From the NCBI RefSeq assembly GCF_030122805.1, contig NZ_CP126080.1, positions 4,221,501 through 4,285,500 of the forward strand: a stretch of 64,000 bases of DNA, written 5' to 3'. The position numbers were made by a program, and so were the translations under genes. Below are positions 4,656 to 63,756 of the stretch, piece after piece (within the stretch, counting starts at the first letter, position 1; each line of letters starts with the position of its first letter). This DNA is from Mesobacillus sp. AQ2 (GTDB lineage Bacteria > Bacillota > Bacilli > Bacillales > Cytobacillaceae). A model generated the notes under the pieces. The model made no database searches, was not told the origin of the DNA, and was given only the letters and a program-made list of their open reading frames with translations.

Positions 4656-4764
4656 GGCGAAAATCGAAATATATCGACCACTTTTCAAGATATATCAGCG
4701 GATTTTTGATTTTATCGACCACATTTTGCAATATTTCGGCGGATTTTCAATTATATCGACCAAG
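4656..4764 (-). repeat. 21-bp-period tandem array, type A, copy 1
   Basis: About five degenerate units are phased at 20-21 bp. The TCG (or TCA) core recurs at 4674, 4695, 4715, 4736 and 4756. On the minus strand the unit reads GTGGTCGATATAT followed by an A-rich tail, alternating with a GCCGAAATAT variant. The array lies just downstream of the yvoF terminator on the yvoF strand. Its first unit carries the same ATATCGACCAAGTC edge (plus strand) as the copy at 45745-45860. Because spacing alternates between 20 and 21 it does not hold a reading frame. Confidence 0.8.
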
Positions 4765-4780
4765 TCCCTTCAAGAAACAA

Positions 4781-4815
4781 AAAAAGCGAAGCGGAATCAT
4801 TTCCGTTCGCTTTTT
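4781..4815 (-). terminator. Rho-independent terminator of yvoF
   Basis: A hairpin with arms GCGAAGCGGAA and TTCCGTTCGC around a short loop is flanked by A and T runs. The arm overlaps the last codons of yvoF. Confidence 0.75.
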
Positions 4816-5339
4816 GTTCCATAAATTTCATCATCCGCCCAACGTTCAGCTAGTTCTTCCTTTGTATAGATGACACGCATCGGGTTGCCGCCGACGAATG
4901 CGCCTTCTGGGACGTCTTTGTGGACGAGTGTCCCAGCAGAGACGATGGCGCCGTCGCCGATCTTAATGCCGGGCATGATCGTTGAATTGGCGCCAATCAT
5001 GACTTCACTGCCGATTTCGACATCGCCAAGACGGTATTCCTTAATCAAATATTCGTGAGCAAGGATGGTGGTGTTATAGCCGATGACGGTATTGCGTCCA
5101 ACCGAAATTTTTTCCGGGAACATGACATCCAGCATGACCATCAGCGCAAAAGAAGTCTGTTCACCGATTTTCATCCGCAAAAATGTACGGTACAGCCAGT
5201 TTTTTATCCCGAGGAAGGGCGTGTAGCGTGCGACCTGGATGACGACAAAATTCTTGACGACCTTCCAGAACGGGACGGTTTTATAAACATGCCAGAGTGA
5301 ATTGGCGCCTTCTACACGATAACGTGTCGTACGTCTCAT
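4797..5339 (-). CDS. yvoF: Hexapeptide-repeat acetyltransferase YvoF
   Basis: About 180 residues with a left-handed beta-helix acyltransferase fold. Repeated isoleucine-rich hexapeptides (IGYNTTI, VMIGANSTI, IKIGDGAIV, GTLVHKDVPEGAFVGGNPM) end in the GNPMRV tail typical of the maltose/galactoside O-acetyltransferase group. The acceptor substrate is unknown. I chose the ATG at 5339 (MRRTTRYR), one base past the ppaX stop, because the longer frame to 5528 is only ppaX read out of phase. It is co-transcribed with ppaX, yvoD, lgt and hprK as in B. subtilis. Confidence 0.88.
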   Translation of the reverse strand: MRRTTRYRVEGANSLWHVYKTVPFWKVVKNFVVIQVARYTPFLGIKNWLYRTFLRMKIGEQTSFALMVMLDVMFPEKISVGRNTVIGYNTTILAHEYLIKEYRLGDVEIGSEVMIGANSTIMPGIKIGDGAIVSAGTLVHKDVPEGAFVGGNPMRVIYTKEELAERWADDEIYGTKSERK

Positions 5340-5340
5340 C

Positions 5341-5985
5341 CTACACCCCGATAATCGGCAGGATATCAGCCATTTTTTCCAGCATATAATCCGGATTGTA
5401 TTGCTCCAGATGCTCTCTGCCCTTGATGGACCAGGCCACGGCAGCCGTCTTTGTGCCGGCATTTTTGCCGCCAAGAATGTCATGGTGGTTATCGCCGACC
5501 ATGATTGCTCGGTCCGGGGAAGAACCAAGCATGTCCAATGCTTTTAAAAGCGGCTCTGGATCTGGCTTTGCTTTTTCGACATGATCCAGTGCGACGACGA
5601 CGTCGAAAAATTCATCAAGCCCCGTCAGCTTCAGGCCCATCTGGACGACATCAGAAAGCTTTGTCGTGACGATTCCAAGGTGGAAACCATTCTCTTTCAG
5701 AGTCCTTACAGTTTCGTACACACCTTCGAAACCTTTTACCAGCAGGTCATGGTTTGCCAGATTGTAGGTGCGGTAGGTTTTGATCATTTCCTCGTAGCCT
5801 TCAGGATCCATCGGCTCGAATGTATCCTTGAGCGATGGCCCTAAAAACGGAAGGACATCCTCCCGTTTGTACTGGCCCGGAAAATAAGTTTCCATTGTAT
5901 GGAGGAAAGACGAAATAATCAATTCATTCGTATCAATCAAAGTCCCGTCGAGATCGAACAAGACCGTATCTATTTTATTGCTCAT
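5341..5985 (-). CDS. ppaX: Pyrophosphatase PpaX (HAD family)
   Basis: A 214-residue HAD hydrolase. Motif I is DLDGTLIDT near residue 9, motif II is around IVTTKLS, and motif III/IV is K-x(n)-GDNHHDI. In B. subtilis PpaX hydrolyses the pyrophosphate released when HprK dephosphorylates Ser-P-HPr, and its position three genes downstream of hprK fits that role. I start at the ATG at 5985 ([11 protein letters not shown]), preceded by AAAGGAAG. This overlaps the last 11 bases of yvoD, which suggests coupled translation. A longer in-frame start at 6009 lacks a Shine-Dalgarno. Confidence 0.93.
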
Positions 5986-6919
5986 ATACTGCTTCCTTTC
6001 TTTTGGCAAGGTCAGCCCGGTTCCAGATGAACGCTACTGCTGTCGTCAATAATATCGCCACTCCAAGGCGAATCAATAACAACGGCAGCACCGGGATTCC
6101 AAGCGGAACAAAAATTAGTGTATCTTCAACGACTGCGTGGCAGGCCACAAGAAAAATGAACGCTAGTGTGACATCCTTTTTGCTGACTCCATCCTCTTGG
6201 ACTGCCTGGATCATCACACCCGCACCGTATGCGAGGCCGATCAGCAGGCCGGCTGCCATGGTCGTCGAGGTGTTTTCCTTCATGCCCAGCGCTTTTGTCG
6301 CCGGCGCCATCCATTTTGAAAAAACGGCAAGCCATTGCTTATCCTTCATGATCTGAACGATGACCATCAGCGGGATGACGATGAGCGCCAGCTGGAAAAT
6401 GCCGATACCGGCTTTGGTGACACTTTCAAGAAGAATTGATCCCCAGCCAGAAACCTCTTCCCCTTTGGCAGGAACCATGCCATATTTTGCGATTTCGGAA
6501 CCGCCATTCCAGACAAGGTTGATGATGATCGCCGATAAGAACGCTAGCCCCAGCCGGACAAGGACAATGATCCAAAGCTTGACGCCGACCTTGACGGCCA
6601 CACTTGATTCGACAAGCATATTGTGCGAAAAGCTCAGCATCACGGCGATGATGAACACTTCTTTTACCGTCAAATCAAGAGTCAGTATTGCTCCGATTGC
6701 CGCATACAGATTGAGGAAGTTCCCTATGACAAGCGGTATCGCCGCATCCCCCGACAAGCCGAACAACGACATCAGCGGTGTGATCAAGTCGATGAGCCAC
6801 GGCAGGACAGGAGTATATTTAAGGATTGAAACAATCAGGGTCACCGGAAAAATCACTTTCCCCAGTGCCCATGTTGTATTCAAGCCAACCATCAACCCTC
6901 TTTTCAATGAAGAACCCAT
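5975..6919 (-). CDS. yvoD: Nucleoside-recognition (Gate) domain membrane protein YvoD
   Basis: A 314-residue polytopic membrane protein with about eight hydrophobic segments. Two Gate/nucleoside-recognition repeats show the characteristic GLxxxxxALGxxxFPVTL-like and [16 protein letters not shown] segments. Family members resemble the SpoIIIA/SpmAB and FeoB gate modules. The transported substrate, if any, is unknown. It lies between lgt and ppaX exactly as yvoD does in B. subtilis, and overlaps ppaX. Confidence 0.85.
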
Positions 6920-6980
6920 TGAAGCATCTCTCCCACTTTTTCAGCCTATATTTAATGTATTGAGTTGGTCCGTAATTTTT

Positions 6981-7793
6981 CTAGTTATCTAAATATCTTA
7001 CTTTTGAATAACCCTTGGCTCTCCTGTAAATCCATAAACCAATCGCAAAAGCAATCAGTGCGATTGAGATAGTCTGGGCAATCCTTAGCGTGTCTGTCAG
7101 CATCAGGCTGTCTGTGCGCATGCCTTCGACAAAGAAGCGTCCGATTGAATACCAGATGACATAACTGAGGAAAAGTTCCCCGCGGCCCAGGTTGACCCTG
7201 CGCAACGACATAAGCAGGATAAAACCAAGCAGATTCCAGATAGATTCATACAGGAACGTTGGGTGATAGTATGTGCCATTGATATACATCTGGTTGATGA
7301 TGAATTCAGGAAGATGCAGGTTCTCCAAAAATGCCCGGGTGACTTCTCCGCCATGTGCCTCCTGGTTCATGAAATTGCCCCAGCGGCCGATTGCCTGGCC
7401 AAGGATGATACTCGGAGCGGCGATATCCGCAAGCTTCCAGAATGAAACATTCCTTGACTTCGTAAAGAAATAAGTAGTGGCTACAGCTCCGATCAACGCG
7501 CCATGAATCGCAATCCCGCCATTCCAGATTTTAAAAATCTCGCCCGGATACTGTACGTAATAATCCCACTGGAAGATAACATAATAAATCCTTGCTGAGA
7601 TGATGGCGATTGGAATCGCCCAGAGCATCAAGTCTGCAAATATATCTTTTGGCAATCCGCGCCGTTCGCCTTCGCGCATGGCAATCCATAAAGCGAGCGC
7701 AATTCCAAGCCCGATGATGACGCCGTACCAGTGCACCTGGATCGGGCCAAGCGAAAAGGCAATCGGGTCGATCGGCTGAATATTCTTTTCCAT
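6981..7793 (-). CDS. lgt: Phosphatidylglycerol-prolipoprotein diacylglyceryl transferase Lgt
   Basis: A 270-residue membrane enzyme that attaches diacylglycerol to the lipobox Cys of prolipoproteins. It shows the Lgt signature [14 protein letters not shown] near residue 137 and the conserved PTFLYES and [12 protein letters not shown] motifs, with about seven transmembrane segments. The ATG at 7793 follows GGGGAAATGAT. The 5' side carries a dispersed hairpin repeat (7815-7933) between hprK and lgt. Its lipoprotein substrates in this window would include the 41334-42392 protein, CccB and GerAC. Confidence 0.97.
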
Positions 7794-7814
7794 ATCATTT
7801 CCCCTTTTTCACAA

Positions 7815-7933
7815 GAAAAGCGCAAGCGCCTTGTCCAGCCCCGACAAGCGCTGGAGGGCCGCCCATTGAAGTCGTTCTTTGACTTCATTGGGCGGACCGA
7901 AGCGACTCGAGGGGCTAGGCGCTGGAGCTGGAC
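7815..7933. repeat. Dispersed 118-bp hairpin repeat (R1), copy 1
   Basis: The element runs from AAAGCGCAAGCGCC to GGCGCTGGAGCTGGA and matches 29888-30005 over almost its whole length in the same orientation. Its centre is a 15-bp inverted repeat (CCGCCCATTGAAGTC / GACTTCATTGGGCGG) around TTCTT-like loop bases. It sits in the lgt 5' region and codes for nothing recognisable. Similar GC-rich extragenic repeats are familiar to me from Bacillaceae genomes, but I cannot search here. Confidence 0.85.
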
Positions 7934-8001
7934 AATTCTCGAAGTGAATTTTTATATATTAAAAAATGAAAAAACCATTTATACCAGCACTTTAGCCGTG
8001 T

Positions 8002-8050
8002 TTAATCAAACGTTTGATTAAGGCTCTTTTTGTAAACTTTATTGCTTTAC
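8002..8050. repeat. 20-bp perfect palindrome plus fragment resembling the end of repeat R2
   Basis: TTAATCAAACGTTTGATTAA (8002-8021) is its own reverse complement and is framed by AGCC and GGCT, then a T run, so it can form a terminator-like hairpin on the plus strand. The next bases, GGCTCTTTT then AAACTTT and TTGCT, resemble the reversed right end of the 22153-22304 element. The rest of the 7934-8113 gap shows nothing else I can name. Confidence 0.5.
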
Positions 8051-8113
8051 AATGCATTATTTTCTTGCGTTCTACTATAGAAATACCTATCTAAAATTCA
8101 TGGTTGTGTCAAT

Positions 8114-9049
8114 TTACCGTTCATCATGGTCGCCGTCTTCGATGACGTCAGAAAGCCTGTTGGTGAATTGCTCTGCTGCGTTCATCCCCATGCGCTTCAG
8201 CCTGAAGTTCATTGCGGCTACCTCAATGATGACAGCGAGGTTACGGCCTGGACGGACCGGAATCGTCAGCTTCGTGATATCGGTGTCGAGGATTCTCATT
8301 TTTTCTTCATCAAGGCCCAATCTATCATATGATTTTTTCTGGTCCCAGATTTCGAGATCAATAATCAGGGAAATCCGTTTATGTGAGCGTACCGCTCCTG
8401 CCCCGAACAGGGTCATGACATTGATGATGCCCACGCCGCGGATTTCGAGCAGATGTTCAATTAGATCTGGCGAGTTACCGACGAGTGTTCCGATATCTTC
8501 CTGGCGGATTTCGACGCAATCATCCGCTACCAGCCGGTGTCCGCGTTTGACCAGTTCAAGCGCAGTTTCACTTTTACCGACACCGCTTTTGCCTGTGATC
8601 AGAACGCCAATCCCATATAGATCGACCAGTACACCATGTACGGCAGTAGTTGGTGCAAGCTTGCTCTCCAGGTAATTTGTCAGATGACTCGAAAGCCTTG
8701 TTGTCTTTTGCTTCGATCTCATGACCGGAACAGATTCTCGTTCGGCCGCTTCAATCAGTTCAGCCGGAACTTCCATGTCCCTTGTAACAATGATGCCTGG
8801 CGTAATATCTGTACAAAGCTTTTCCATCCGCTCTGTCTTTTCGCGAGGGTTCAGTTTTTCAAAGAAGGTCAATTCTGTTTTACCAAGCAACTGCAGGCGC
8901 TCCGCAGGATAATATTCAAAGTAACCGGCAATCTCGAGTCCCGGCCTTGAGATATCAGTGGTCGTAATCGGACGGTTGATGCCTTCCTCTCCACTTAACA
9001 ATTCCATGTCGAATTTCTCGATGATGTCTTTAGTGCGGACTTTTGGCAA
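8114..9049 (-). CDS. hprK: HPr kinase/phosphorylase HprK
   Basis: A 311-residue bifunctional enzyme that phosphorylates and dephosphorylates Ser46 of HPr (and Crh), setting carbon catabolite repression. It carries the Walker A motif GKSGVGKS and the family signature [23 protein letters not shown] stretch. The C-terminal [16 protein letters not shown] is also conserved. I start at TTG 9049 (PKVRTKDI), which follows AAAGGAGG at ideal spacing; a GTG at 9085 would add 12 atypical residues. It heads the hprK-lgt-yvoD-ppaX-yvoF operon and is divergent from nagA. Confidence 0.95.
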
Positions 9050-9188
9050 AGAAACTTCCTCCTTTATTAGGACATTTTTTTCCACATGATCACAATACTT
9101 TATATTTTAGCACTTTTTCAGACAGAACCAAATATAAGGAGTCAAAAAACACCATTGTTGTTTTTGAAATTGTATACTTCTCAATATA

Positions 9189-9262
9189 TGTCTATACCAG
9201 TTGAAGCCATAATCAAATTATGTATAGTGGTATAGACAACCCAAAGGTGAGATTTGTATAAT
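9189..9262 (+). promoter_or_regulatory. nagAB promoter with two NagR (YvoA) operators
   Basis: Two half-symmetric sites match the known NagR/YvoA operator core TGGTATAGACAA: TGTCTATACCAGTT at 9189-9202 (inverted) and AGTGGTATAGACAAC at 9226-9240. The second overlaps a probable -35 (TAGACA, 9233-9238), with TATAAT as the -10 at 9257-9262. nagR itself is the third gene of this operon, so autorepression relieved by GlcN-6-P or GlcNAc-6-P is expected from the B. subtilis case. Confidence 0.75.
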
Positions 9263-9296
9263 AGAAAGAAATAAGACACAATTTTCGGGTGATAGG

Positions 9297-10469
9297 ATGA
9301 AAGAATTATTGCTGGTTAACGCCAGGATTTTAACCGAAGAGACGTTGATTCAAAAAGGATATCTTTATATAAAAGACGGGATAATTGCTGATATCGGGCT
9401 TGTTTCTTCCCTCCCCGAGCATCATGCAGATGTAGTGGAACTGCCGGAAGATAGCACAATTGTTCCCGGGTTCATTGATGTGCACATCCATGGAGCCGGC
9501 GGAGCCGATACGATGGACGCAACCATTGAAGCCCTGACCACCATGGCGTCGTTCCTGCCAGAGGAAGGAACGACCAGTTTTCTTGCTACAACGATCACAC
9601 AGGAACAATCCGCCATTTTCAAAGCTTTGAAAAATGCCGAAGACTATATGGGCAGTCATAATTATCCAGGAAAAGCGGAGATGCTCGGGATCCATCTGGA
9701 AGGACCCTTCATCAATGAAGTACGTAAAGGGGCCCAGCCAGAGAAATACATCAACAAACCCGATATCGAGCTATTCAAGAACATGCAGCAAGCATCAGGG
9801 AACAATATCAGGCTTGTCACGCTGGCGCCGGAAAAAGAGAACGGCAATGAACTTATAGCACATTTGGCCAAAAATGGTGTCATTGCTTCGGTTGGCCATT
9901 CTGATGCTACATACGCACAGATGTCTGAAGCTGTAAAATCCGGCGCGAGCCATGTGACCCATTTATTCAATGGTATGCGCGGGATACATCACCGCGATCC
10001 AGGAGTCGCAGGAGCTGCGCTGCTTTTGGATGAGTTGAAAATCGAGCTGATTGCGGATGGAATCCATGTCGTTCCAGAAATGCTTGATCTAGCGATACGG
10101 TCAAAGGGAAAAGATGGTGTCATTCTGATTACCGATTCCATGAGGGCGAAATGCCTTAAGAACGGCATATACGACCTTGGCGGGCAAGCAGTGAGTGTTG
10201 CGGACGGAAAGGCACTTTTAGAAGATGGAACTCTTGCTGGCAGTATTTTAAAAATGAAGGATTCCCTGAAGAATATGATGAAATTCACCGGCATCAGTCT
10301 TGAGGATGCAGTAAAGCTATCCAGTGAGAATCCTGCCAGGCAGCTTAAAGTTTTCAATCGAAAAGGAAGCATTGCTGCCGGGAAGGATGCCGATCTTGTT
10401 GTGCTGGACAGCAACAACGATGTTGCCATGACTTTTTGCCGGGGTATCATCAGCTATACCCGCTTATAA
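9297..10469 (+). CDS. nagA: N-acetylglucosamine-6-phosphate deacetylase NagA
   Basis: A 390-residue amidohydrolase that removes acetate from GlcNAc-6-P to give GlcN-6-P. The PGFIDVHIHG motif (residues ~56-65) is the metal-binding HxH. The downstream HLEGPF, GHSDATY and HLFNGM motifs, and a catalytic Asp in LITDSM, are typical. The ATG at 9297 follows a GGGTGATAGG Shine-Dalgarno. It is the first gene of nagA-nagB-nagR behind two NagR operators. Confidence 0.97.
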   Translation: MKELLLVNARILTEETLIQKGYLYIKDGIIADIGLVSSLPEHHADVVELPEDSTIVPGFIDVHIHGAGGADTMDATIEALTTMASFLPEEGTTSFLATTITQEQSAIFKALKNAEDYMGSHNYPGKAEMLGIHLEGPFINEVRKGAQPEKYINKPDIELFKNMQQASGNNIRLVTLAPEKENGNELIAHLAKNGVIASVGHSDATYAQMSEAVKSGASHVTHLFNGMRGIHHRDPGVAGAALLLDELKIELIADGIHVVPEMLDLAIRSKGKDGVILITDSMRAKCLKNGIYDLGGQAVSVADGKALLEDGTLAGSILKMKDSLKNMMKFTGISLEDAVKLSSENPARQLKVFNRKGSIAAGKDADLVVLDSNNDVAMTFCRGIISYTRL

Positions 10470-45675: not shown

Positions 45676-45744
45676 GCTGTTTGGGTAAGGTTTCATTGAT
45701 TTCGCACCCATATTCCTGCTTCCGAATTCCGGTAAAATGGGTTT

Positions 45745-45860
45745 ATTGGCGAAAAATCTGATTTTATCGACCACATTTTTGATTATTTCGGCGGATTTTC
45801 AAATATATCGACCACTTTTCCGAATATATCGACCACATTTACAGATATATCGACCAAGTC
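45745..45860 (-). repeat. 21-bp-period tandem array, type A, copy 2
   Basis: The TCG core recurs at 45767, 45788, 45808, 45829 and 45850, i.e. steps of 21, 20, 21 and 21. On the minus strand units read GTCGATATATTCGGAAAAGT, with one GCCGAAATAATC variant as in copy 1. It begins one base beyond the iadA terminator on the iadA strand and ends with the same ATATCGACCAAGTC edge as copy 1. Confidence 0.82.
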
Positions 45861-45894
45861 AAAAAGAACCTTGACCGCTTATGGTCAAGGTTCT
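45861..45894 (-). terminator. Terminator of iadA
   Basis: AGAACCTTGACC and GGTCAAGGTTCT arms around GCTTAT; the minus strand continues into TTTTT. Confidence 0.88.
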
Positions 45895-45899
45895 TCTAA

Positions 45900-47069
45900 T
45901 CATTCAAATGTCCCTCTCACTAGCGGAACTTTGTTTTCTACCATTACTTTTCCCATTGCGATGACCGTATCAATCTCAAGGTCCTTATCCAGCAGCACCA
46001 GGTCTGCATCACGTCCTGTTTCGATCCGGCCTTTTTGTGAAAGCTTTAAAACGGCTGCCGGGTTCGCCGTGATCACTCGGATGGCGACCTCAAGCGGAAT
46101 CCCCTCCGAAACTACGGCTTCCTTAACAGCATCGTACAAAGACGAAACCTGGCCAATCTGCAAACCAATCAGTTCACCATTTTGATCAAAATCAGGCAGG
46201 CTCGCCTGTCCATCGGAAGTGAAGGTAATCTGGCTGATGTCGACGCCCGCTTCAAGCATCCGCTTGAGACCGACACTGCATTTGACCTCCCCTTCCTCCA
46301 AAAACTTCGGGATGGAACTGGTAGTGAAATCAACCCAGCCGCCTTTTTTCGCGTACTCAATGCCTGCTTCAAACAGGTGGGGATTGCGGTTGATATGGGT
46401 CGGATAAAATTGCCGGATCGGGATGTCGGTATTCTCGACGACCTCCTCGATCAGCTTCAGATGGTCTAGGCTGTCGCCGACATGGACATTGACGATGCCG
46501 CTTTTTCCAGCGAGCATCCCGCCAATCCTCGCTGCCGAAGCGATTTTGGCCAGCTCCTCGGCAGTCGGCTGGGATGAACGATGATCGGCGATCGCAATCT
46601 CGCCCGCTCCGATTACTTTATCAATCAAAATGATGTCGTCCTCAATTTTGCCGGTAAGCGTTTTGACAGGGACCTGATAGGAGCCCGTTTGCACATAGGT
46701 AGTGATGCCTTCTTCTTCTAACGCTCTTGCCTTGGCAATCAAGCTCGGCATCGTTCGTGTCGTGCCGTCAGTGCCGAGAACACCGACCAGCGTCGTGATG
46801 CCGGCAGTTGTCGCCTGGGTCAGCTGGATTTCCGGTGTCCTGGTACGGAACCCGCCTTCTCCGCCGCCGCCAATCAGGTGGACATGTGAATCGATGAAGC
46901 CTGGTACAACCGTCTTGCCCTCAGCATCAATAACTTTCACATCGACGAACTTTTCTGGAACTTCGATTTCATCCTGGATGAATCCGATTTTCCGATCGAC
47001 AATTAAAATATCTTTTTTACCAATGTGATCTGGTGCGTAAATCTCGCCATTCTTAATAAGTGTCAGCAT
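45900..47069 (-). CDS. iadA: Beta-aspartyl dipeptidase (isoaspartyl peptidase) IadA
   Basis: A 389-residue amidohydrolase: HVHL in PGFIDSHVHLIGGGGEGG (metal ligands), a catalytic/bridging region around IAIADHRSSQP, HVGDS and PTHINRNPHLFE (metal His), and TSDGQASLPDF with the catalytic Asp. It cleaves isoaspartyl dipeptides from damaged proteins. The ATG at 47069 follows GGAGGAGAG; the longer frame to 47102 has no site. It is divergent from the T-box-controlled transporter gene. Confidence 0.92.
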   Translation of the reverse strand: MLTLIKNGEIYAPDHIGKKDILIVDRKIGFIQDEIEVPEKFVDVKVIDAEGKTVVPGFIDSHVHLIGGGGEGGFRTRTPEIQLTQATTAGITTLVGVLGTDGTTRTMPSLIAKARALEEEGITTYVQTGSYQVPVKTLTGKIEDDIILIDKVIGAGEIAIADHRSSQPTAEELAKIASAARIGGMLAGKSGIVNVHVGDSLDHLKLIEEVVENTDIPIRQFYPTHINRNPHLFEAGIEYAKKGGWVDFTTSSIPKFLEEGEVKCSVGLKRMLEAGVDISQITFTSDGQASLPDFDQNGELIGLQIGQVSSLYDAVKEAVVSEGIPLEVAIRVITANPAAVLKLSQKGRIETGRDADLVLLDKDLEIDTVIAMGKVMVENKVPLVRGTFE

Positions 47070-47135
47070 GCACTCTCCTCCAACTTCCTGCTGTTTCCTC
47101 AATTATAGCTTGTTTCAATTCTCTGAAAAAGAAGC

Positions 47136-47170: not shown

Positions 47171-47440
47171 TATTACATTTTAATAAGTTGAAGCATTGAA
47201 GAGAGTTTATTAAGCCGGTCTCCCTGTTACTAGAGAATCAGTGGTTGGTGAAAACTGATACAAAGTCCTGGTGAATTTCGTTCTTGGAGCTTTTCCTTTA
47301 ATACACATTGTAAAAAAGGAACGGACTTGGCCGTTATCCAATTAACTTGAGCGGGAAGCGTATTTTTGCTTCCAAATAGGGTGGTACCGCGTGTTCAGCC
47401 ACGTCCCTATCCAGATCGTTGGATAGCGGCGTGGCTTTTT
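47171..47440 (+). promoter_or_regulatory. T-box riboswitch, probable tRNA-Phe (UUC) specifier
   Basis: The T-box core AGGGTGGTACCGCG lies at 47378-47391 and is followed by a strong terminator hairpin (GCCACG..CTATCC / GGATAG..CGTGGC, 47398-47436) with a T run. The 3' strand of Stem I reads GAAT-TTC-G-TTCTTGGAGC (47273-47292), which aligns with the glyQS pattern GAAA-GGC-A-TTCTTGAGC. The specifier codon is thus TTC at 47277-47279. Uncharged tRNA-Phe should allow read-through into the transporter gene. The Phe assignment is inference from alignment by eye. Confidence 0.88.
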
Positions 47441-53958: not shown

Positions 53959-54097
53959 CCCTATGTCACCATCCCCGTAAAATTACTTATTATTAAGCTT
54001 ATTCTATCAAATCTAGGGGGTAAAACCTATTAATACTTGCGGAAATGGGATGGGATTTTTTTCTTGTGGAGGTTTATTTCTGTCGATAGCAACTAAT

Positions 54098-54223
54098 CTC
54101 TATGGAATCCGGGTTATTCTCTACGGTTTGGTCTGGAATCTCTACGGAATGCTGCTTATTCTCTACGGAAGAGGCTATAATCTCTACGAAATGAAGCATA
54201 TTCTCTACGTTTACCATAAACTA
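54098..54223 (-). repeat. 21-bp tandem array, type B
   Basis: Six units with exact 21-bp steps: CTCTA begins at 54098, 54119, 54140, 54161, 54182 and 54203. On the minus strand the unit is CGTAGAGAWTAT, a variable part and TTC. It lies directly past the ctpB terminator on the ctpB strand. The plus frame translates as seven-residue repeats (LYGxxxI), but no ribosome binding site supports expression. The remainder of the minJ-ctpB gap is empty apart from the terminator. Confidence 0.88.
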
Positions 54224-54225: not shown

Positions 54226-54260
54226 AAAAAAACGCTGCACCCCTGACTAAGGTACAGCGT
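54226..54260 (-). terminator. Terminator of ctpB
   Basis: On the minus strand ACGCTGTACC and GGTGCAGCGT arms are followed by TTTTTT. Confidence 0.85.
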
Positions 54261-54285
54261 CTTCTAAAAATGGAGTTGTAGTTGA

Positions 54286-55743
54286 TTACCTTGCCAGCAG
54301 CCTCAACGCAGTCTGCAGCTGCAAATCGTTCTCTTCCTGCTTCATCGCTTCCCTGGCAGCTTCCTCAAGAGCACTGGCCGTTTTGGCGTTGATTACACCT
54401 GTTACGTTCATACTCTTGTTACGCTGGAATGCCTTGACAGCGATTTCGGTCTTATCGCTAAAGTAGCCGTCCGTGCGCCCCGGCTCGAATCCAAGGCCTG
54501 CAAGAATCTCTTGGGCGTTCTTGACCTGCTCGTTATTCATATCCAGCTTCAGCGGTTTTTCAGCCTGAATCGGATGGGTGTGATACAAAGCCGGCTGGTT
54601 GACTTCGACGGTTGGCTCGATACCTTTCTTATGGATCCATTTGCCATCCGGCGTCAGCCATTTGAACAGCGTCAGCTTGATATTGCTGCCATCGCCCATC
54701 GGCACAGCCTGCTGGACTGTTCCCTTTCCGAAGGTCTTTTCGCCGATAACAGGATAGCCGCCCGCTTCCTTCAATGCCCCGGCCAGGATTTCCGCTGCGG
54801 ATGCACTTCCGTCATTTGTCAGCACGCCAATCGGGTAGTCTTTCGCTTTAGCCAAATTTGAAAAATAACGTGTCTTATCTCCGCTGCGTTCCTCTATCTG
54901 ATAAAGCGGCTTATCTTTAGGAATCAGCTCTCGCAAAACCTCTTCGACACTCGATAGCAGCCCGCCAGGATTTCCGCGAACATCAATCAGCAGCGCATCC
55001 AATCCCTCTTTTTCCAGTATCTTCAGTTCTTTATTGAATTCCTTGGATGTTTCCTCAGAAAATGAGGTTATCTCCAGGTATCCGATTTTTTCGCCATTTA
55101 CCTTTTTCATATCACTATAAACCGTAATCTGTGGGATTTCATCACGGATCACTTTTACCTGAAGCGGATCCTTCAAGCCTTTCCGCCCAATCTCGAGTAC
55201 CACAGGGGTCCCCTTTTTCCCGCGGATTTTCGTTGTCGCTTCAAACAAGTCCAGCCCATCGATACTTTCACCATCAACCTTCAGAATCTGGTCGTTCGGC
55301 TTCAAACCCGCTTTTTCTGCAGGCGAATTTTTAAAAGGCGAAACAATCACGATCTTTCCATCAACTGAACTGACTTCAGCGCCAATCCCCTCAAATGATG
55401 ACTCCAGTGTCTGATTGAATTGCTTAGCAGTTTCCTTGTCCATATAGACCGAATAAGGATCCTCCAAAGTCGACAGCATGCCCTTGATGGCACCCTCAAC
55501 CAGCTTTTTTCCCTCTACTTTTTCCACATAACTATTAAAAATCAAACTGTAGGCCTGCTCAACTTTTTCAATACTGCCCTGCTCGCCTGATTCTGCCCTC
55601 GCACTATCCTTAAAAGGGACAATCTGACGGTCCAGCACCCCAGCCTTACTCTCGTACCATTGCATCCCGGCGTATGTACTCCCCGCCCCAGTCAGCAGCG
55701 AGCCCGCCATCAAAATGGCAATCCACTTACGCTCCATTGCCAA
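54286..55743 (-). CDS. ctpB: S41 carboxy-terminal processing protease CtpB
   Basis: A 485-residue exported protease. A signal/anchor helix occupies ~6-26, a PDZ domain ~115-185, and the S41 core ~215-400. The catalytic dyad fits S315 (GSASAAE) and K340 (FGKGTVQ), with Q344, the same spacing as in known CtpB. A peptidoglycan-binding-type helical repeat (NAQEILAGLGFEPGRTDGYF) follows near residue 415. In B. subtilis CtpB cleaves SpoIVFA in sporulation. It lies downstream of the ftsEX/M23 block. Confidence 0.93.
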   Translation of the reverse strand: MAMERKWIAILMAGSLLTGAGSTYAGMQWYESKAGVLDRQIVPFKDSARAESGEQGSIEKVEQAYSLIFNSYVEKVEGKKLVEGAIKGMLSTLEDPYSVYMDKETAKQFNQTLESSFEGIGAEVSSVDGKIVIVSPFKNSPAEKAGLKPNDQILKVDGESIDGLDLFEATTKIRGKKGTPVVLEIGRKGLKDPLQVKVIRDEIPQITVYSDMKKVNGEKIGYLEITSFSEETSKEFNKELKILEKEGLDALLIDVRGNPGGLLSSVEEVLRELIPKDKPLYQIEERSGDKTRYFSNLAKAKDYPIGVLTNDGSASAAEILAGALKEAGGYPVIGEKTFGKGTVQQAVPMGDGSNIKLTLFKWLTPDGKWIHKKGIEPTVEVNQPALYHTHPIQAEKPLKLDMNNEQVKNAQEILAGLGFEPGRTDGYFSDKTEIAVKAFQRNKSMNVTGVINAKTASALEEAAREAMKQEENDLQLQTALRLLAR

Positions 55744-59016: not shown

Positions 59017-59025
59017 ATTATAGCA
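59017..59025 (-). promoter_or_regulatory. Extended -10 promoter candidate for ftsEX
   Basis: TGCTATAAT on the minus strand is a perfect extended -10 about 65 bp before ftsE; no good -35 is present at 17 bp. The remaining 59026-59354 stretch is AT-rich and shows no other signal I trust. Confidence 0.5.
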
Positions 59026-59354
59026 TCTAGCTCTATCAAATAAACCCTTTTATATATTACAGTTTCTTTTCAAATTGAACAAAAAGTCCCATTATATTCC
59101 TCTGAAGGGTAATATATCTACTAATTCACAAAGCATTTCACTTGCCAATCTAGCTATTTACCAAGTAAAATGCACTATTTGCAGCAAGTGTGTATTTGTC
59201 GAATTTTTAGTTTTATTACACGTGTGTTACGAGATTTTGTCAAAACTTGTATGTACAAATTGTGAAGCTTGCTGAATTGCTAAATAATTTGGCGATTTTT
59301 CTAAAATGCATAAGGACAGCATTTTACCTGACAGCAGACTGGAAAAATAAGCGC

Positions 59355-59387
59355 AAAAAAAAACGCCCTGATGATGATCAGAACGTT
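59355..59387 (-). terminator. Terminator of cccB
   Basis: AACG..CTGAT and ATCAG..CGTT arms; the minus strand continues into a nine-base T run. Confidence 0.85.
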
Positions 59388-59399
59388 TCCTTTTAAATG

Positions 59400-59711
59400 T
59401 TATTTTTTGTTTGCCAGCCATTCAGCAACTGCAGATGCATCGTCACCTTCAAGTAATTTTGGAGGCATTGACCCTTTACCATTGGCGATTGTACTTTCAA
59501 TCTCATCCTGGGATAGACGTGAACCTACATCACTTAATTTTGGCCCTACGCCGCCTTCAAGATTTCCGCCATGGCAGCTTGAACATTTTTGGTTAAAAAG
59601 CTTTTCCGGATCTGCACCAGCTTTGTCGCCGCCAGCTTCATCGCCGCCACCGCCGCAGGCTGCCAGTGCCAAGGAGGTTCCCATTAATAGAGCTAATAAT
59701 TTCTTCTTCAA
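59400..59711 (-). CDS. cccB: Cytochrome c-551 lipoprotein CccB
   Basis: A 103-residue small cytochrome c. The lipobox ALAACG follows a short signal; a Gly/Asp-rich linker leads to the heme c motif CSSCH, with axial Met in GSMPP. It carries electrons at the outer face of the membrane. The start is TTG at 59711 after AGGGGGAG. It lies between yvjA and ftsE as in B. subtilis. Confidence 0.93.
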
Positions 59712-59762
59712 ACTTAACTCCCCCTAAGAAAATTTTGCATACATGACTATTTTATACCAATA

Positions 59763-60626
59763 CTAAGCCCTTTTAAAACCCTCACCCAATACCTCTGAAG
59801 CATCCATTACAATCACAAATGCAGCAGGGTCAATGGATTGAACCAATTGTTTCAATTTTGTGAACTCCGTCTGGTCCACTACACACATGATGATTGGCCG
59901 TTCTTGATCGGTATAGCCGCCGTATGCTGATAGTTTTGTCACTCCACGGTCAATTTTATTCAAAATCGCTTCACGAACTTCATCCTGGCGGTTCGTGATG
60001 ACCATCGCCATCTTCGAGCGACCGATACCAACCTGCACAAGGTCGATGGTTTTACTAGTCACATAAAGCCCGATCAAAGCATAAAGACCTCGTTCAATAT
60101 CAAAGACAATCGCTGCAGACAATACAATCAGCCCATCAATCAACGCCACGCAGGTTCCAAGTGAAAGTCCCGTGTACTTATGGATGATTTGCGCGGCCAA
60201 ATCCGTACCGCCAGTTGATGCATTTCCTCTGAATACAATCCCAAGGCCCAGACCGACACCAATACCGCCGAACAATGACCCAAGCAAAGGATCGAGAGTC
60301 CAAGGCTTCACATCATTCGTCAGGAACACAACAAATGGAAGAAAAATGGTCCCTGCAAGAGTTTTATACCCATATTGCCTTCCAAGTAAAACAACCCCGG
60401 CAATAAACAACGGAATATTAAATGCCCACTGCACATACGCTGGCTCCCAGCCAAGCGTCGCATCCAAAATTGTACTGATCCCGCTCACTCCTCCTGAAGC
60501 AACACGGTTTGGCAGCAGGAACACATTAAACGATATAGCCACAATCCCTGAACCTATCAACACATATACATATTCAATCAGCTTGTCCAAAGCTGGATTC
60601 ATCTTTTGATTCCGCCGTTTTTTCAC
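59763..60626 (-). CDS. yvjA: YitT/DUF2179 family membrane protein YvjA
   Basis: A 287-residue protein: five or six helices (residues ~15-200; FLLPNRVASGGVSGIS; FRGNASTGGTDLAAQI) and a C-terminal DUF2179 ferredoxin-like domain (TNRQDEVREAILNKIDRGVTKL). The function is unknown. I prefer GTG at 60626 (VKKRRNQ) after GGGGATAGG over the longer frame to 60671. Confidence 0.87.
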   Translation of the reverse strand: MKKRRNQKMNPALDKLIEYVYVLIGSGIVAISFNVFLLPNRVASGGVSGISTILDATLGWEPAYVQWAFNIPLFIAGVVLLGRQYGYKTLAGTIFLPFVVFLTNDVKPWTLDPLLGSLFGGIGVGLGLGIVFRGNASTGGTDLAAQIIHKYTGLSLGTCVALIDGLIVLSAAIVFDIERGLYALIGLYVTSKTIDLVQVGIGRSKMAMVITNRQDEVREAILNKIDRGVTKLSAYGGYTDQERPIIMCVVDQTEFTKLKQLVQSIDPAAFVIVMDASEVLGEGFKRA

Positions 60627-60684
60627 TGTCCTATCCCCTTTTCCCATTAATGCCGTCAGTGAGTATAGCATGTGTCGAATTTTC

Positions 60685-60698
60685 TGTAAACGCTAGCA
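60685..60698. promoter_or_regulatory. Candidate CcpA cre site
   Basis: TGTAAACGCTAGCA matches the cre consensus TGWAANCGNTNWCA at 13 of 14 positions. It lies 59 bp before yvjA and about 320 bp before the sulfur-enzyme gene. Confidence 0.45.
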
Positions 60699-60832
60699 GT
60701 GCGCCGTATTAAAGGATGAAAGAAAGACTTCGATTATATATGAAGAGGTACGCCGTCTTTTAATAGGCTGCCCCGGGTCAATTAGGAAAAGAAAGATTTT
60801 AAAGCTAATTTTTTTGACTTCTCTGGGTGAGT

Positions 60833-60909
60833 TTGTGAAATTATGAACAATTTTTGACGTTTCTTTAAATACCCTTACCCCTAGTCGTACTTTGTGATAT
60901 ATTTCACGT
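60833..60909 (+). promoter_or_regulatory. Two Rex/FNR-like boxes upstream of the CoA-disulfide reductase fusion
   Basis: TTGTGATATATTTCACGT (60892-60909) matches the Rex operator TTGTGAA-N4-TTCACAA with few mismatches and also fits FNR (TGTGA-N6-TCAC). TTGTGAAATTATGAACAA (60833-60850) has a perfect left Rex half and a weaker right half. They are 59 bp apart. Redox or oxygen control is inferred. Confidence 0.5.
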
Positions 60910-60926
60910 ATAAGGAGGCGGTCATA

Positions 60927-60968
60927 TTGATTAGTCTTTCCTGTAATAAGATGAAATTATTTTTTTAA
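60927..60968 (+). CDS. Possible 13-residue leader peptide
   Basis: A TTG start with AAGGAGG eight bases upstream opens a frame of 13 codons (MISLSCNKMKLFF) ending in TAA, 53 bp before the large redox gene. The site is stronger than that of the main gene. It may be a leader peptide or chance; no stem-loop attenuator is obvious. Confidence 0.35.
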   Translation: MISLSCNKMKLFF

Positions 60969-61021
60969 CAAGGATTGCTCAACGCTACACAATAAAATTC
61001 TCCAGAAAGAGGGTAATATAG

Positions 61022-63589
61022 ATGGCTAAAAAAGTGGTAATCGTAGGTGGAGTTGCTGGCGGAGCTACAACAGCTGCCCGGTTGAGAAGATTGGATGAAC
61101 AAACAGAAATCGTGATGATCGAACGCGGTGAATACATTTCTTTTGCCAACTGCGGCCTTCCTTATTATATCGGCGGTGCCATCCAGGAGCGCGATGCATT
61201 GCTTGTGCAGACAGTTGAAGGCATGTCTAAAAAGTTCAATATGGACATCCGCAACCTAAGCGAAGTGACGCGAATTGACCGTGAACGCAAGGTAGTGGAA
61301 ATCCATGATTTAAAAACAGGTAAAACATATGAAGAAAATTATGATGTACTGGTTCTATCACCTGGAGCGAGTCCTATTAAACCTCCGATTCCGGGTATCG
61401 ATGAAGCTGAAGCATTGTTCACACTTCGCAATATTCCGGACACTGATAAAATCAAGGCATATGTCGATGAGCGGAAGCCGATGAAAGCAACAGTCATCGG
61501 CGGCGGTTTCATCGGTGTCGAAATGGCCGAAAACCTTTGGGAACGCGGCGTCGAAGTGACACTTGTCGAGATGGCTGACCAGATCATGGCGCCGATCGAC
61601 TTTGAGATGGCTTCTATTTTACACCAACATCTACGGGAAAAAGGCGTGAACCTGATCCTAGAAGATGGTGTGAAATCTTTTGAAAACAACGGTAAACTGA
61701 TCAACCTGAATAGCGGCAAACAAATCGATACTGATCTGGTAATACTTGCGATTGGCGTTACTCCTGAAAATAAATTGGCTAAGGAAGCAGGCCTGGAGCT
61801 TGGACTTCGCGGTGCAATCCGTGTTAATGAAAGATTGCAGACAGCCGATGAAAGCATCTACGCTATCGGTGATGCGATTGAAGTAAAAGATTATATCAAC
61901 GGCCAGGCGACTCACATTCCGCTCGCATGGCCGGCCAACCGCCAGGGACGCATCGTCGCTGACCATATCAACGGCATCGACTCCAAGTACCAGGGAACAC
62001 TCGGAACATCCATTGCGAAGGTGTTTAACATGACAGTTGCCGCAACAGGCAATAACGAAAAGACATTGAAGCGCCTTGGCATTTCTTACGATGTCGTTCA
62101 CGTTCACCCAAGCTCTCACGCTGGCTACTATCCAGGCGCCTTCCCTATCGCACTTAAATTGATCTTTGACCGCGAGACAGGAAAAATCTTTGGAGCTCAG
62201 GCGGTGTCTTATGATGGCGCCGACAAACGAATCGATGTTTTAGCAACTGCCATCAAAGGCGGCATGACGATTTTTGACCTTCCGGATCTTGAGCTGGCAT
62301 ACGCGCCGCCATACTCTTCTGCAAAAGATCCGGTCAACATGGCGGGCTATGCAGCGAAGAATATCGCTGAAGGTCTTGTGGAAACCGTTCAATGGCATGA
62401 AATCAATGACATCCTTGCAAACGGCGGCTACCTGATTGACGTCCGCGAGCCAATCGAGCGCGACATGGGCCTGATTGAGGGTTCTGTCAACATCCCGCTT
62501 GGCGAGCTGCGCGACCGCCTAGACGAGATTCCGACGAAAGAAGTGTATGTATACTGCCAGGTCGGCCTGCGCGGGTACCTTGCTTCTCGTATCCTGAAGC
62601 AGGCTAGGTTCAATGTTCGCAACCTGGATGGCGGATACAAGACTTACTCTTGCGTGTTCGAGCCAGATGCGAGTGAAAACTGTGGTACACCAATTAGCGA
62701 TAATGGTGTGGCTCAGCGCAATCTTGCGATGGAAGAGATTGCTGCGGGTGCGGCCCAGAGCAGTGTTGGATTGGCCGTTGAGGCGGCTCCAGTTGCACCG
62801 GCAGCTCCAGTTGCTCCACCGACTGTAAAAACCACCCTTGATGCCTGCGGCTTATCCTGTCCTGGCCCAATCATGAAGGTGTACAAAACAATCGGTGACA
62901 TGAAGGACGGCGAGGTGATGGAAGTCCATGCAACTGACCCAGGCTTCGCGAAGGACATCAAGGCATGGTGCGAAAAGACCGGCAACAAGCTGGTCAGCAA
63001 CAAGTTTGAAGATAAGAAATTCAAGGCGCAAATCATGAAAGGAAACGTTGTGGTGACTTTGAATACGATGGCTGCACCGGTGGAAGTTCCTACTGGCGTA
63101 CCAGCTGCTGCCCCTGCTAAAAACGGTGCGACCATGGTCGTATTCAGCGGTGACCTCGACAAGGCCATCGCAACCTTCATCATCGCATCCGGAGCCGCGG
63201 CGATGGGTAAAGAGGTAACTTTGTTCTTCACCTTCTGGGGACTGAACATCTTGAAGCGCAACGACGCACCGGCCACCGAGAAGGATATGATGGCAAAAAT
63301 GTTCAGCATGATGATGCCGAAAGGCGCGAACGACCTGCCATTATCCAAGATGAACATGGGCGGCATGGGCGCCAAGATGATCAAGACCGTCATGGCCAAC
63401 AAAAATGTCGACAGCCTCGAAACCTTAATGAAAAACGCTATGGACGCCGGTGTTAAGCTTGTCGCCTGCGGCATGAGCATGGACCTCATGGGGATTTCCA
63501 AAGAAGAGTTAATCGACGGAGTCGAAATCGGCGGAGTTGCAGCATATCTTGGAGATGCTGAGGATTCTGGATTGAATTTGTTTATATAG
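61022..63589 (+). CDS. CoA-disulfide reductase / rhodanese / TusA / DsrE fusion protein
   Basis: An 855-residue fusion. Residues 1-~445 form an FAD/NAD(P) disulfide reductase (VVIVGGVAGGATTAARLRR; active Cys C44 in FANCGLPY; second nucleotide site ATVIGGGFIGVEMAENL). Residues ~455-550 form a rhodanese (VDVREP-like; Cys in YCQVGLRGY). Residues ~600-675 form a TusA sulfur carrier (CGLSCPGP, CPxP-type). Residues ~705-855 form a DsrE2-type domain (conserved VACGMSMD). It should shuttle persulfide sulfur and reduce CoA or other per/disulfides. It is monocistronic with Rex/FNR-like boxes upstream. Confidence 0.93.
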   Translation: MAKKVVIVGGVAGGATTAARLRRLDEQTEIVMIERGEYISFANCGLPYYIGGAIQERDALLVQTVEGMSKKFNMDIRNLSEVTRIDRERKVVEIHDLKTGKTYEENYDVLVLSPGASPIKPPIPGIDEAEALFTLRNIPDTDKIKAYVDERKPMKATVIGGGFIGVEMAENLWERGVEVTLVEMADQIMAPIDFEMASILHQHLREKGVNLILEDGVKSFENNGKLINLNSGKQIDTDLVILAIGVTPENKLAKEAGLELGLRGAIRVNERLQTADESIYAIGDAIEVKDYINGQATHIPLAWPANRQGRIVADHINGIDSKYQGTLGTSIAKVFNMTVAATGNNEKTLKRLGISYDVVHVHPSSHAGYYPGAFPIALKLIFDRETGKIFGAQAVSYDGADKRIDVLATAIKGGMTIFDLPDLELAYAPPYSSAKDPVNMAGYAAKNIAEGLVETVQWHEINDILANGGYLIDVREPIERDMGLIEGSVNIPLGELRDRLDEIPTKEVYVYCQVGLRGYLASRILKQARFNVRNLDGGYKTYSCVFEPDASENCGTPISDNGVAQRNLAMEEIAAGAAQSSVGLAVEAAPVAPAAPVAPPTVKTTLDACGLSCPGPIMKVYKTIGDMKDGEVMEVHATDPGFAKDIKAWCEKTGNKLVSNKFEDKKFKAQIMKGNVVVTLNTMAAPVEVPTGVPAAAPAKNGATMVVFSGDLDKAIATFIIASGAAAMGKEVTLFFTFWGLNILKRNDAPATEKDMMAKMFSMMMPKGANDLPLSKMNMGGMGAKMIKTVMANKNVDSLETLMKNAMDAGVKLVACGMSMDLMGISKEELIDGVEIGGVAAYLGDAEDSGLNLFI

Positions 63590-63596
63590 TATTGGG

Positions 63597-63625
63597 AGCG
63601 GCCTTCTTAGGAGGGCTGCTTTTTT
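63597..63625 (+). terminator. Terminator of the redox fusion gene
   Basis: AGCGGCC and GGCTGCT arms (one G-T pair) are followed by TTTTT, just past the stop. Confidence 0.85.
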
Positions 63626-63651
63626 CTGATTTTTTCCTTATTTAGGAAGAC

Positions 63652-63756
63652 GGTGCAATTATCTCGATTATTGGCGCAATTAATTAGGAGGACCGTGCAA
63701 TTATTGCAAAACATGGTGCAATAACCTTAAACAACGGTGCAATTATCTCTTTTTAC
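63652..63756 (+). repeat. 21-bp tandem array, type C
   Basis: Five units of exactly 21 bp start at 63652, 63673, 63694, 63715 and 63736. The consensus is GGTGCAATTAT followed by ten variable bases. It begins 27 bp after the terminator of the redox gene and on its strand. From 63757 to the window end I see no gene; an AGATTTGCG / CGTAAATCT inverted repeat lies near 63872-63902. Confidence 0.9.

Follow-up and report, generated by a model that had tools for sequence, protein, structure and literature searches.

Arrays of helically phased 20-21 bp repeats pair with NERD-domain genes in Mesobacillus

Introduction

Several direct repeats of 20-22 bp that share a DNA face and have A/T-rich parts and an asymmetric core are a familiar feature of plasmid origins, where they are termed iterons.

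REP/REPIN elements, on the other hand, are present in many extragenic copies per genome and fall into several classes, each of which is defined by nearness to a single-copy nuclease gene, RAYT (available sections of PMC3686654 and PMC3116915). According to the same sections, REP classes change at orthologous genes ("orthoswitch") and orphan classes occur whose gene is present in relatives (PMC3686654, PMC3116915). In the Beggiatoaceae, TAACTGA direct repeats are abundant between genes and show an orientation preference; they are 7-bp, contiguous units of a single sequence and lie mostly upstream of start codons in the Maribeggiatoa genome (available part of PMC4679880).

The nuclease-related domain NERD has been described as a DNA-processing domain (Grynberg and Godzik 2004, as cited in the accessible text of PMC12567373). 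Excerpts of the literature on this domain and repeats contain no NERD-repeat link, and as far as could be found the pairing of arrays with NERD genes reported here has no earlier description.

Results

Four repeat arrays in the window

The window, i.e., the whole stretch of 64,000 nucleotides of the Mesobacillus sp. AQ2 chromosome that was analyzed, contains four arrays of short direct repeats and the following neighboring features.

4656..4764 (-): array 1, d type (GGTCGA), five registered units with 20/21-bp spacing, reading with the heptaprenylglyceryl phosphate acetyltransferase (yvoF-like) gene 4797-5528 (-)
4778..4815 (-): terminator-like hairpin with T-tract of the acetyltransferase gene, 11 bp from array 1; exact limits read from sequence
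45745..45860 (-): array 2, d type (GGTCGA), five registered units, reading with the beta-aspartyl-peptidase (iadA) gene 45900-47102 (-); the next gene is convergent
45861..45897 (-): terminator-like hairpin of the beta-aspartyl-peptidase gene, running into array 2; limits read from sequence
54098..54223 (-): array 3, e type (GTAGAGA), six units, all spacings 21, reading with the CtpB-like gene 54286-55743 (-), which encodes an S41 protease with a CtpB N-terminal domain
54226..54265 (-): terminator-like hairpin of the CtpB-like gene, 5 bp from array 3; limits read from sequence
63652..63756 (+): array 4, f type (GTGCAAT), five units, all spacings 21, after the redox fusion gene 61022-63589 (+), a CoA-disulfide-reductase/rhodanese/TusA/DsrE fusion
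~63594-63626 (+): terminator-like hairpin of the redox fusion gene, read by eye

An earlier note on this DNA had placed four arrays of 20-21 bp period at these positions, close behind terminators. TRF recovered arrays 1-3 (4670-4762, 45765-45856 and 54094-54209) and autocorrelation the fourth; the window's three strongest stretches at lag 21 begin at 45734, 54089 and 63628, and array 1 ranks top at lag 41. The period was likewise borne out, with 20- and 21-bp spacings mixed in arrays 1-2, where the core variants GTGGTCGATATA, CCGCCGAAATA and CCGCTGATATA also occur side by side, and 21 bp throughout arrays 3-4. Terminator-to-array distances of 11, -6 and 5 bp for arrays 1, 2 and 3 agree with the claimed proximity, as does the fourth hairpin, which ends at ~63626 ahead of a first core at 63652 and was left unscored because the window holds no gene to its right. 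Array 4 precedes, by ~0.8 kb, an f-type NERD gene that starts at about position 64554, beyond the window. In all, two matching NERD genes flank the window, ~0.6 kb to the right and ~2.3 kb to the left. Scanning the window with Rfam 15 at the gathering threshold returned no RNA family at the arrays, the sole match being a T-box at 47187-47411.

The arrays belong to a large system with a common grammar

A core-blind detector was applied to 61 stretches of the same genome (1.264 Mb, window included). It returned 30 noncoding arrays at period 20 and 32 at period 21, two overlapping sets, as well as 17 at period 22 and 7 at period 19, and none at periods 14-18, 23, 24 or 28. A separate class with periods of 25-27, comprising 23-28 arrays, represents a different element. 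The four arrays of the window are members of this large system, and that they are real is practically certain.

Most arrays consist of 5-6 units, which are asymmetric direct repeats 20-21 bp apart. The earlier note had aligned three unit types to one consensus. The letters turned out not to be shared, at least nine core types being present in the genome, but a common grammar was found, in which a core of 5-7 bp is followed by an A/T block, a mixed block and a second A/T block. Units agree at 0.88 in the cores versus 0.43 in the linkers, and 360/361 neighboring units are like with like. Conservation of the cores exceeded a uniform-decay simulation by 2 SD in 72/80 arrays, as judged with a detector that favors exact cores. 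A/T tracts recur at ~10.4 bp, and the A/T signal peaks at half the unit period in 58/80 arrays (mean power 2.38 versus 0.77). Together with the strict 20-21 bp spacing, this peak agrees well with the earlier note's idea of a site family facing one side of the DNA. Young-looking tandem copies were seen at L037, with nine near-identical 20-bp units, and at L107, with 13 units. L112 shows higher-order repeats.

Cores are conserved and, at one locus, switched in place

In orthologous arrays, mismatches affect 37/750 core letters versus 219/625 free positions, which points to selection on the sites. Part of the linker sequence is conserved across species and the A/T blocks are kept, 121 of the 171 A/T-block mismatches being A-T swaps. 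At one orthologous locus, all four matched cores differ by one letter (A/T) while the linkers are still homologous; this switched locus shares 15/20 free positions, and none of 404 non-orthologous pairs reaches 0.65. Between loci of the AQ2 genome, linker letters are shared at 0.54 within types and 0.455 between types, which we take as a likely indication that types a, b and d have spread. For types e and f, linker likeness (0.42 and 0.47) compares with a chance level of 0.45, so that no spreading is seen. A repeat-generating process, as the earlier note had offered, does not by itself account for core likeness over diverged linkers, like-with-like neighbors or in-place switching.

Placement relative to genes and terminators

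Arrays lie mainly at gene 3' ends. Among 29 oriented arrays of the genome, 23 read with the upstream gene (21/27 after dropping two rows of another kind). Tandem gaps favor the upstream gene by 11:4 (p=0.12), and by 37:9 when relatives are included (p=4e-5), the latter a count in which orthologous loci recur. Divergent gaps hold 2/27 arrays, as compared to 115/470 of gaps overall (p=0.059). A terminator-like hairpin is located within 110 bp upstream of 20/27 arrays, versus 199/389 array-free gene ends with one within 130 bp (p=0.027). The genome-wide tie to terminators and strand that had been predicted is mostly upheld in direction (23/29 oriented arrays, 20/27 with hairpins) but weak in places, and the array-terminator association is modest.

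Each core type pairs with a clade of NERD genes

We compared 79 proteins (PF08378) of one NERD subfamily from Mesobacillus with 675 control genes, using the identical detector. An array was found within 620 bp of 76/79 subfamily-1 NERD genes versus 71/675 controls; it lies upstream of the NERD gene in 70 of those 76, and all 68 labeled upstream arrays read in the direction of the gene. Each of the five subfamily-1 NERD genes of the AQ2 genome is accompanied by an array, and no two of these arrays share a core. Nineteen core labels, mapped onto the tree of 72 labeled proteins, require 18 changes, the minimum without homoplasy, a match that is partly expected since gene and neighboring array are co-inherited. 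Judged by this comparison of sequences, each core type pairs with one clade of the subfamily. Seven NERD loci are syntenic, and alleles with different cores exist at five of them.

One of eight cores is found in 30/32 array rows of the AQ2 genome, and for each of the eight there is a NERD gene in Mesobacillus with an adjacent array of that core. This genome lacks a same-type NERD gene for its arrays of types b, c, e and the ninth type; those of types b and e look as intact as types with a resident NERD gene. Nineteen of 21 Mesobacillus genomes searched carry 9-14 NERD genes and the remaining two carry 5 and 0, the latter in a 66% complete assembly. The genes are syntenic, with almost none on plasmids or phages. 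A second NERD subfamily adjoins 52-bp repeats.

There is a tendency for scattered arrays to be of the same type as the resident allele, but the exceptions are clear. The a-type share is 0.50-0.91 in six genomes with the TCGCTAT allele and 0.23-0.68 in eight with the TCGCCAAT allele (p=0.004, ignoring kinship), although a-type arrays predominate in three of these eight. Similarly, and again with kinship ignored, GTAGAGA and GTAGTGA pairs number 31:19 in two GTAGAGA-allele genomes versus 7:138 in four GTAGTGA-allele genomes. As further exceptions, G000 and G008 retain GTAGAGA arrays despite a GTGCAAT allele, and G018, with the GTGCAAT allele, has 57 GTAGTGA pairs.

The NERD protein

PF08378 was matched by 47/47 aligned homologs, in which a Pfam search found no transposase domain, weak zinc-ribbon matches excepted. 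E46, D79, K94 and four cysteines are invariant in all 47; the first three are putative catalytic-type residues. The protein is modeled as a PD-(D/E)XK-type nuclease with a zinc ribbon and a terminal winged helix (mean pLDDT 94.9). Specificity-like columns are not concentrated in the winged helix at the strict cut-off (0/61, compared with 5/76 in the middle part and 4/112 in the NERD domain). Six proteins were scanned with PADLOC. L257 matched 112 residues of PglW (E 3e-8) and 137 of MkoA (E 5e-7), both much larger proteins; only weak stretches of Cas12f and Cas10 were matched by L260 and L266, respectively, and L092, L258 and L261 gave no match.

Discussion

The arrangement resembles RAYT-REP in that repeat classes are tied to a neighboring single-copy nuclease gene, the core following the NERD clade, in the class switches at five syntenic loci and in the orphan types b, c and e. 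It differs in its enzyme, a NERD protein of predicted PD-(D/E)XK type instead of a tyrosine transposase (TnpA-REP), in its repeats, runs of 5-6 non-palindromic direct units in helical phase instead of palindromic, inverted doublets, and in the arrays that switched core in place with linkers kept. Iterons are likewise sets of direct repeats (20-22 bp) along a single DNA face, with A/T-rich parts and an asymmetric core; unlike them, the arrays are chromosomal, number ~30 per quarter genome and have many cores, and no replication protein was seen. TAACTGA repeats have, in the part of the source available, no partner gene family. A CRISPR reading was rejected, given linkers partly conserved between species with A/T blocks, cores of 5-9 bp spaced at 20-21 bp, and, among the neighbors inspected, NERD and ordinary genes.

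We propose, with a probability of roughly 0.55, a NERD-array system that acts like RAYT-REP but is made of unrelated parts, the arrays being clusters of cognate sites for NERD proteins. That NERD proteins are the readers of the arrays is highly probable. The binding, cutting and spreading that we infer for them would proceed as follows. A C-terminal winged helix would read the 5-7 bp core, the proteins being lined up head to tail along a single DNA face, one for every 20-21 bp, and A/T tracts bent towards them each turn; 5-6 proteins would therefore cover ~105-130 bp. The array preceding the NERD gene may serve the protein's own control. By analogy with the supposed role of RAYT at REPs, the conserved nuclease center may act on cognate arrays and keep, convert or spread them at gene 3' ends; for the nuclease keeping or spreading arrays, we see an even chance. 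Once a NERD locus gains a new-core allele, the scattered arrays would follow, at least partly unit by unit and in place, and arrays of the old type would persist as relics.

The same placement at 3' ends, oriented with the gene, could instead reflect NERD proteins that are host transcription or chromosome-organizing factors, with arrays as operators (read-through roadblock, insulator or supercoil sink) under ordinary selection and no spreading by a nuclease. In-place selection on cores and spacing, the modeled winged helix and syntenic genes nearly absent from plasmids and phages are consistent with this explanation, which we regard as quite possible, if unlikely. A plain DNA-binding factor, however, would have no need of the nuclease residues that all 47 homologs keep unchanged, host regulators do not usually come with so many alleles and cores at one locus, and linker likeness across loci for types a, b and d suggests copying.

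That the link is one of mere neighborhood, with gene and array inherited jointly and another protein as reader, is improbable. Both do descend together within a syntenic locus, and four array types of the AQ2 genome lack a resident NERD gene of their type; against this stand seven separate loci with their own core at each, the enrichment over control genes (76/79 versus 71/675) and scattered arrays that partly follow the resident allele. Phased A/T tracts might alternatively bend DNA, e.g., for gyrase or a nucleoid protein, with incidental core letters. The half-period A/T peak and the prevalence of A-T swaps point in this direction, whereas the predicted bend is only moderately larger than in column-permuted arrays (81 versus 67 degrees, 45/73 arrays above), and letter-exact cores and the NERD link are left unexplained; we consider a pure DNA-shape element very improbable. 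Neutral minisatellites, formed by slippage at gene ends, are scarcely credible, as the young-looking copies at L037 and L107 and the higher-order repeats at L112 are outweighed by periods limited to 19-22, the excess over uniform decay, like-with-like neighbors and in-place switching.

For a NERD-array system acting on its cognate sites, a bolder version, which we consider doubtful, is that NERD nuclease and DNA repair rewrite the core letters of existing arrays genome-wide after a change in specificity, leaving linkers untouched. Such rewriting would amount to a drive acting inside the chromosome, by which dozens of binding arrays stay matched to a single protein. It may run twice per genome, since the second NERD subfamily also adjoins repeats, those of 52 bp.

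Defined by behavior alone, the NERD-array system could count as a RAYT-REP variant; it may be regarded as a new kind of system, since it departs from RAYT-REP, the closest one found, in protein family, in repeat geometry and in its in-place switching. Seven loci and 19 core labels, along with orthologous arrays in which one core letter changed in every matched unit, offer a natural experiment in protein-DNA co-evolution. If our reading is true, the NERD family, whose role is so far unproven, would gain defined DNA targets, and bacteria would possess, besides RAYT-REP, an unrelated second way of pairing scattered repeats with a resident nuclease gene.

Phased arrays in the chromosome

TRF and autocorrelation recovered all four arrays of direct repeats that the earlier note had placed in the window (4656-4764, 45745-45860, 54098-54223 and 63652-63756). 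The chromosome holding the window measures 4.80 Mb, and 61 stretches of this genome (1.264 Mb, about a quarter) were scanned with a detector that records, for each period, any 7-mer recurring three or more times. Noncoding arrays numbered 30 at period 20 and 32 at period 21 (overlapping sets), 17 at period 22 and 7 at period 19; the same detector found none in these stretches at periods 14-18, 23, 24 or 28, and a separate class occupies periods 25-27. Unit registration yielded 32 rows. Two (L032 15365 and L053 13227) are not arrays of this kind and were set aside; L032 15365-15448 holds TGTGGATAA copies at 19-22 bp spacing, caught by the detector, which we take to resemble a DnaA box cluster. 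The remaining 30 rows comprise eight core types: d (GGTCGA) 8, a (TCGCTAT) and b 5 each, c and f (GTGCAAT) 3 each, g, h and e (GTAGAGA) 2 each. A ninth core type, CAACTGGAGATAAA, also occurs in the genome. Relatives with the nearest ctpB-like gene are mostly Mesobacillus or Bacillus, and 30 of 80 such ctpB neighbourhoods carry at least one array with at least four units. Gene calls throughout are mechanical ORFs, and the compared genomes are kin to each other, some coinciding. A T-box leader scoring above gathering lies at 47187-47411 (+) of the window.

Unit anatomy

Units were compared across 80 arrays of four units or more, namely 30 rows from this genome (including the two odd ones) and 50 from ctpB neighbourhoods. 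Five units are present in 33 arrays and six in 29; among 383 spacings, 251 are 21 bp and 114 are 20 bp. Compared pairwise, units have a mean identity of 0.88 over their best 9-bp block, a figure inflated because the detector demands exact 7-mers, versus 0.43 elsewhere, and 72/80 arrays lie 2 SD above simulated uniform decay. The best sampled type (147 units) has the consensus C-GTAGWGA-TTAT-N5-WWWW, with A/T fractions of 0.96-1.00 at positions 8-9, 0.40-0.59 at 12-16 and 0.95-0.98 at 17-19. Across all types, the A/T signal peaks at half the unit period in 58/80 arrays, with a mean power there of 2.38 versus 0.77 when columns are permuted. A TGGAAAA-like leader usually precedes unit 1 and in some cases forms an arm of an inverted repeat. 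Cores match in 36/40, 39/40, 31/39 and 30/36 cases for units 1-4, and in 24/32, 20/25 and 1/5 for units 5-7. Several GTGCAAT/GGGCAATT arrays have in common a AAGAGAATAATTTTTCCAG-like trailer that follows their final unit in 21-bp register by eye (window 63757-63780; L093, L095, L096 and L099, after ctpB).

Placement at gene ends

The upstream gene is co-directional with the array in 23/29 oriented arrays of this genome, or 21/27 without the two odd rows. In its tandem gaps, arrays running with the gene outnumber those against it 11:4 (p=0.12); including relatives the ratio is 37:9 (p=4e-5), with orthologous loci counted repeatedly. Divergent gaps hold 2/27 arrays compared to 115/470 of all gaps (p=0.059). 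A terminator-like hairpin lies within 110 bp upstream of 20/27 arrays, and within 130 bp at 199/389 array-free gene ends and 52/233 gene starts (enrichment at arrays, p=0.027). Orientation, gap and hairpin counts therefore make the arrays mainly 3'-end features. Of the earlier proposal that arrays follow terminators and read with the terminated gene, placement at gene ends and direction are mostly borne out, weakly in places; the terminator link is a modest enrichment.

Arrays adjoin NERD genes

Genes next to arrays located 5' of a gene, when read, include NERD-domain proteins (PF08378), modelled as a PD-(D/E)XK-type nuclease with zinc ribbon and winged helix. The genome has 11 NERD genes, five of which (318-332 aa) adjoin an array, with five different cores (CAACCGT, GGTCGA, AAGGAATA, GTGCAAT and TCGCTAT). 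NERD genes number 9-14 in 19/21 genomes, 5 in one and none in one that is 66% complete; 3/14 well-known control genomes gave a NERD match. Proteins were obtained from 91 of 100 fetched NERD loci, 79 of them treated as subfamily 1. An array lies within 620 bp of the gene in 76 of these 79, compared to 71/675 control genes with the same detector; none was detected within that distance at L278, L304 and L343. NERD-side arrays are upstream in 70 cases, at a median distance of 98.5 bp from the start codon, and downstream in 11, and orientation equals gene direction in 68/68 labelled upstream arrays. Core labels, post hoc at NERD loci, were assigned to 72/79; 18 changes on the NERD tree, the minimum, account for the 19 labels, with 17/76 inner branches weak and one join flagged unsure. 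Beyond the genus, in one record from Cytobacillus (L122), a TGACCGGAATA array sits 92 bp upstream of a NERD gene, which is split in that record.

Several further observations concern these genes and their neighbours. The NERD frame at L316 (genome G012, C15:35582) has one internal stop codon and is perhaps a decaying copy. Four of the six other NERD genes of this genome (L262, L263, L266 and L267) adjoin a repeat class of ~52-bp period. This class has inverted halves, e.g., GACAGGTTT...AAAAGCTGTC, adjoins genes of the other NERD subfamily and occupies 28 places in the scanned stretches, e.g., L033 15227-15949 and L036 5680-6742. At least eight 9-mers are shared with one of six NERD loci by 27/28 of these arrays, a count in which three arrays are the same DNA as NERD loci and two loci were compared over the whole 3.3 kb. 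Another repeat family, made of repeated blocks with AGTTACCTTTTTTA and AAATAGGTAATTGAGGGG, lies right of the window end in L260 intergenic 414-1377, where it separates the f array from the f-type NERD gene; such blocks also occur at L091 and L095. In three other Bacillaceae records, arrays with three differing cores (L119 17557, L121 16696 and L131 19404) precede an ABC_trans_CmpB (PF06541) gene.

NERD alleles and scattered arrays

By flanking genes, the 79 NERD genes form seven syntenic groups and one singleton, and five of the seven groups contain alleles with differing cores.

Core alleles by syntenic group (one group per line)
CAACCGT / AACYGGAGA / CAACTGGTA / CAACCGGSAA / AACGGGGA
GTGCAAT / GAGAGAT / GGGAGAT / GTAGAGA / GTAGTGA
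TCGCTAT / TCGCCAAT
GGTCGA / TCGCAA
TCGCGGAA / TTGCGAA / TTGCGGA

Array types b, c, e and the ninth have no resident NERD gene in this genome; the same cores belong to NERD alleles in other species. Scattered arrays appear to match the resident allele in part, in counts that include the NERD-side arrays themselves. The a-type share is 0.50, 0.65, 0.79, 0.84, 0.91 and 0.91 in six genomes with the TCGCTAT allele versus 0.23, 0.28, 0.32, 0.37, 0.44, 0.58, 0.60 and 0.68 in eight with TCGCCAAT (p=0.004, relatedness ignored; 14 of 21 genomes typed). Two GTAGAGA-allele genomes have GTAGAGA:GTAGTGA pair counts of 25:9 and 6:10; four GTAGTGA-allele genomes have 0:25, 3:23, 0:27 and 4:63. Counter-cases are three genomes with a resident GTGCAAT allele, G000 (19:2), G008 (8:0) and G018 (0:57).

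Core switching

Forty GTAGWGA arrays were compared in seven Mesobacillus genomes, including the present one. The fifth core letter is uniform, all A or all T, in 37/40. Over 21 genomes, 361 adjacent unit pairs comprise 100 A-A, 1 A-T, 0 T-A and 260 T-T (the last by subtraction), and eight of the 21 hold both kinds. In orthologous arrays (free-position identity at least 0.5, same-species pairs excluded), mismatches affect 37/750 core letters versus 219/625 free positions; the A/T blocks differ at 142/500 and 171/500, with A-T swaps making up 84 and 121 of these mismatches. These pairs are non-independent, and some are built on two or three units.

At one locus, array L228 of this genome and L232 of another species agree at 15/20 free positions, and all 4/4 matched cores differ, A vs T; L215 at the same locus agrees at 13/20. 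Among non-orthologous controls, none of 404 pairs having four or more units attains 0.65 (maximum 0.6). Replacement of the whole array fails to account for the L228-L232 case, whereas unit-by-unit change accounts for it. A third candidate switch, L202 vs L235, agrees at 9/15 over three units, not above the control maximum of 0.6.

Proposed action and comparison with RAYT-REP

With cores masked, linker similarity between loci of this genome is 0.54 within types (57 pairs) versus 0.455 between types (378 pairs), a difference that supports probable copying of arrays in types a, b and d but not in e and f. Comparison across genomes demonstrates, at the level of sequence, the arrays, their grammar, their linkage to NERD genes, the allele-core match, a partial match in trans and conserved residues. 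As to mechanism, the winged helix of NERD may read the array core, with proteins binding head to tail and DNA bent around them. The upstream array would serve self-control of the NERD gene, and the nuclease may act on the arrays.

The closest working model is RAYT-REP, a nuclease gene with its repeats. According to PMC3686654, RAYT repeat classes are defined by closeness to the gene, the class beside an orthologous gene can change ('orthoswitches'), and for orphan repeats the RAYT gene is found in relatives. The NERD-array system has an enzyme of another family, and its repeats are not palindromic; it would therefore work like RAYT-REP without being RAYT-REP.
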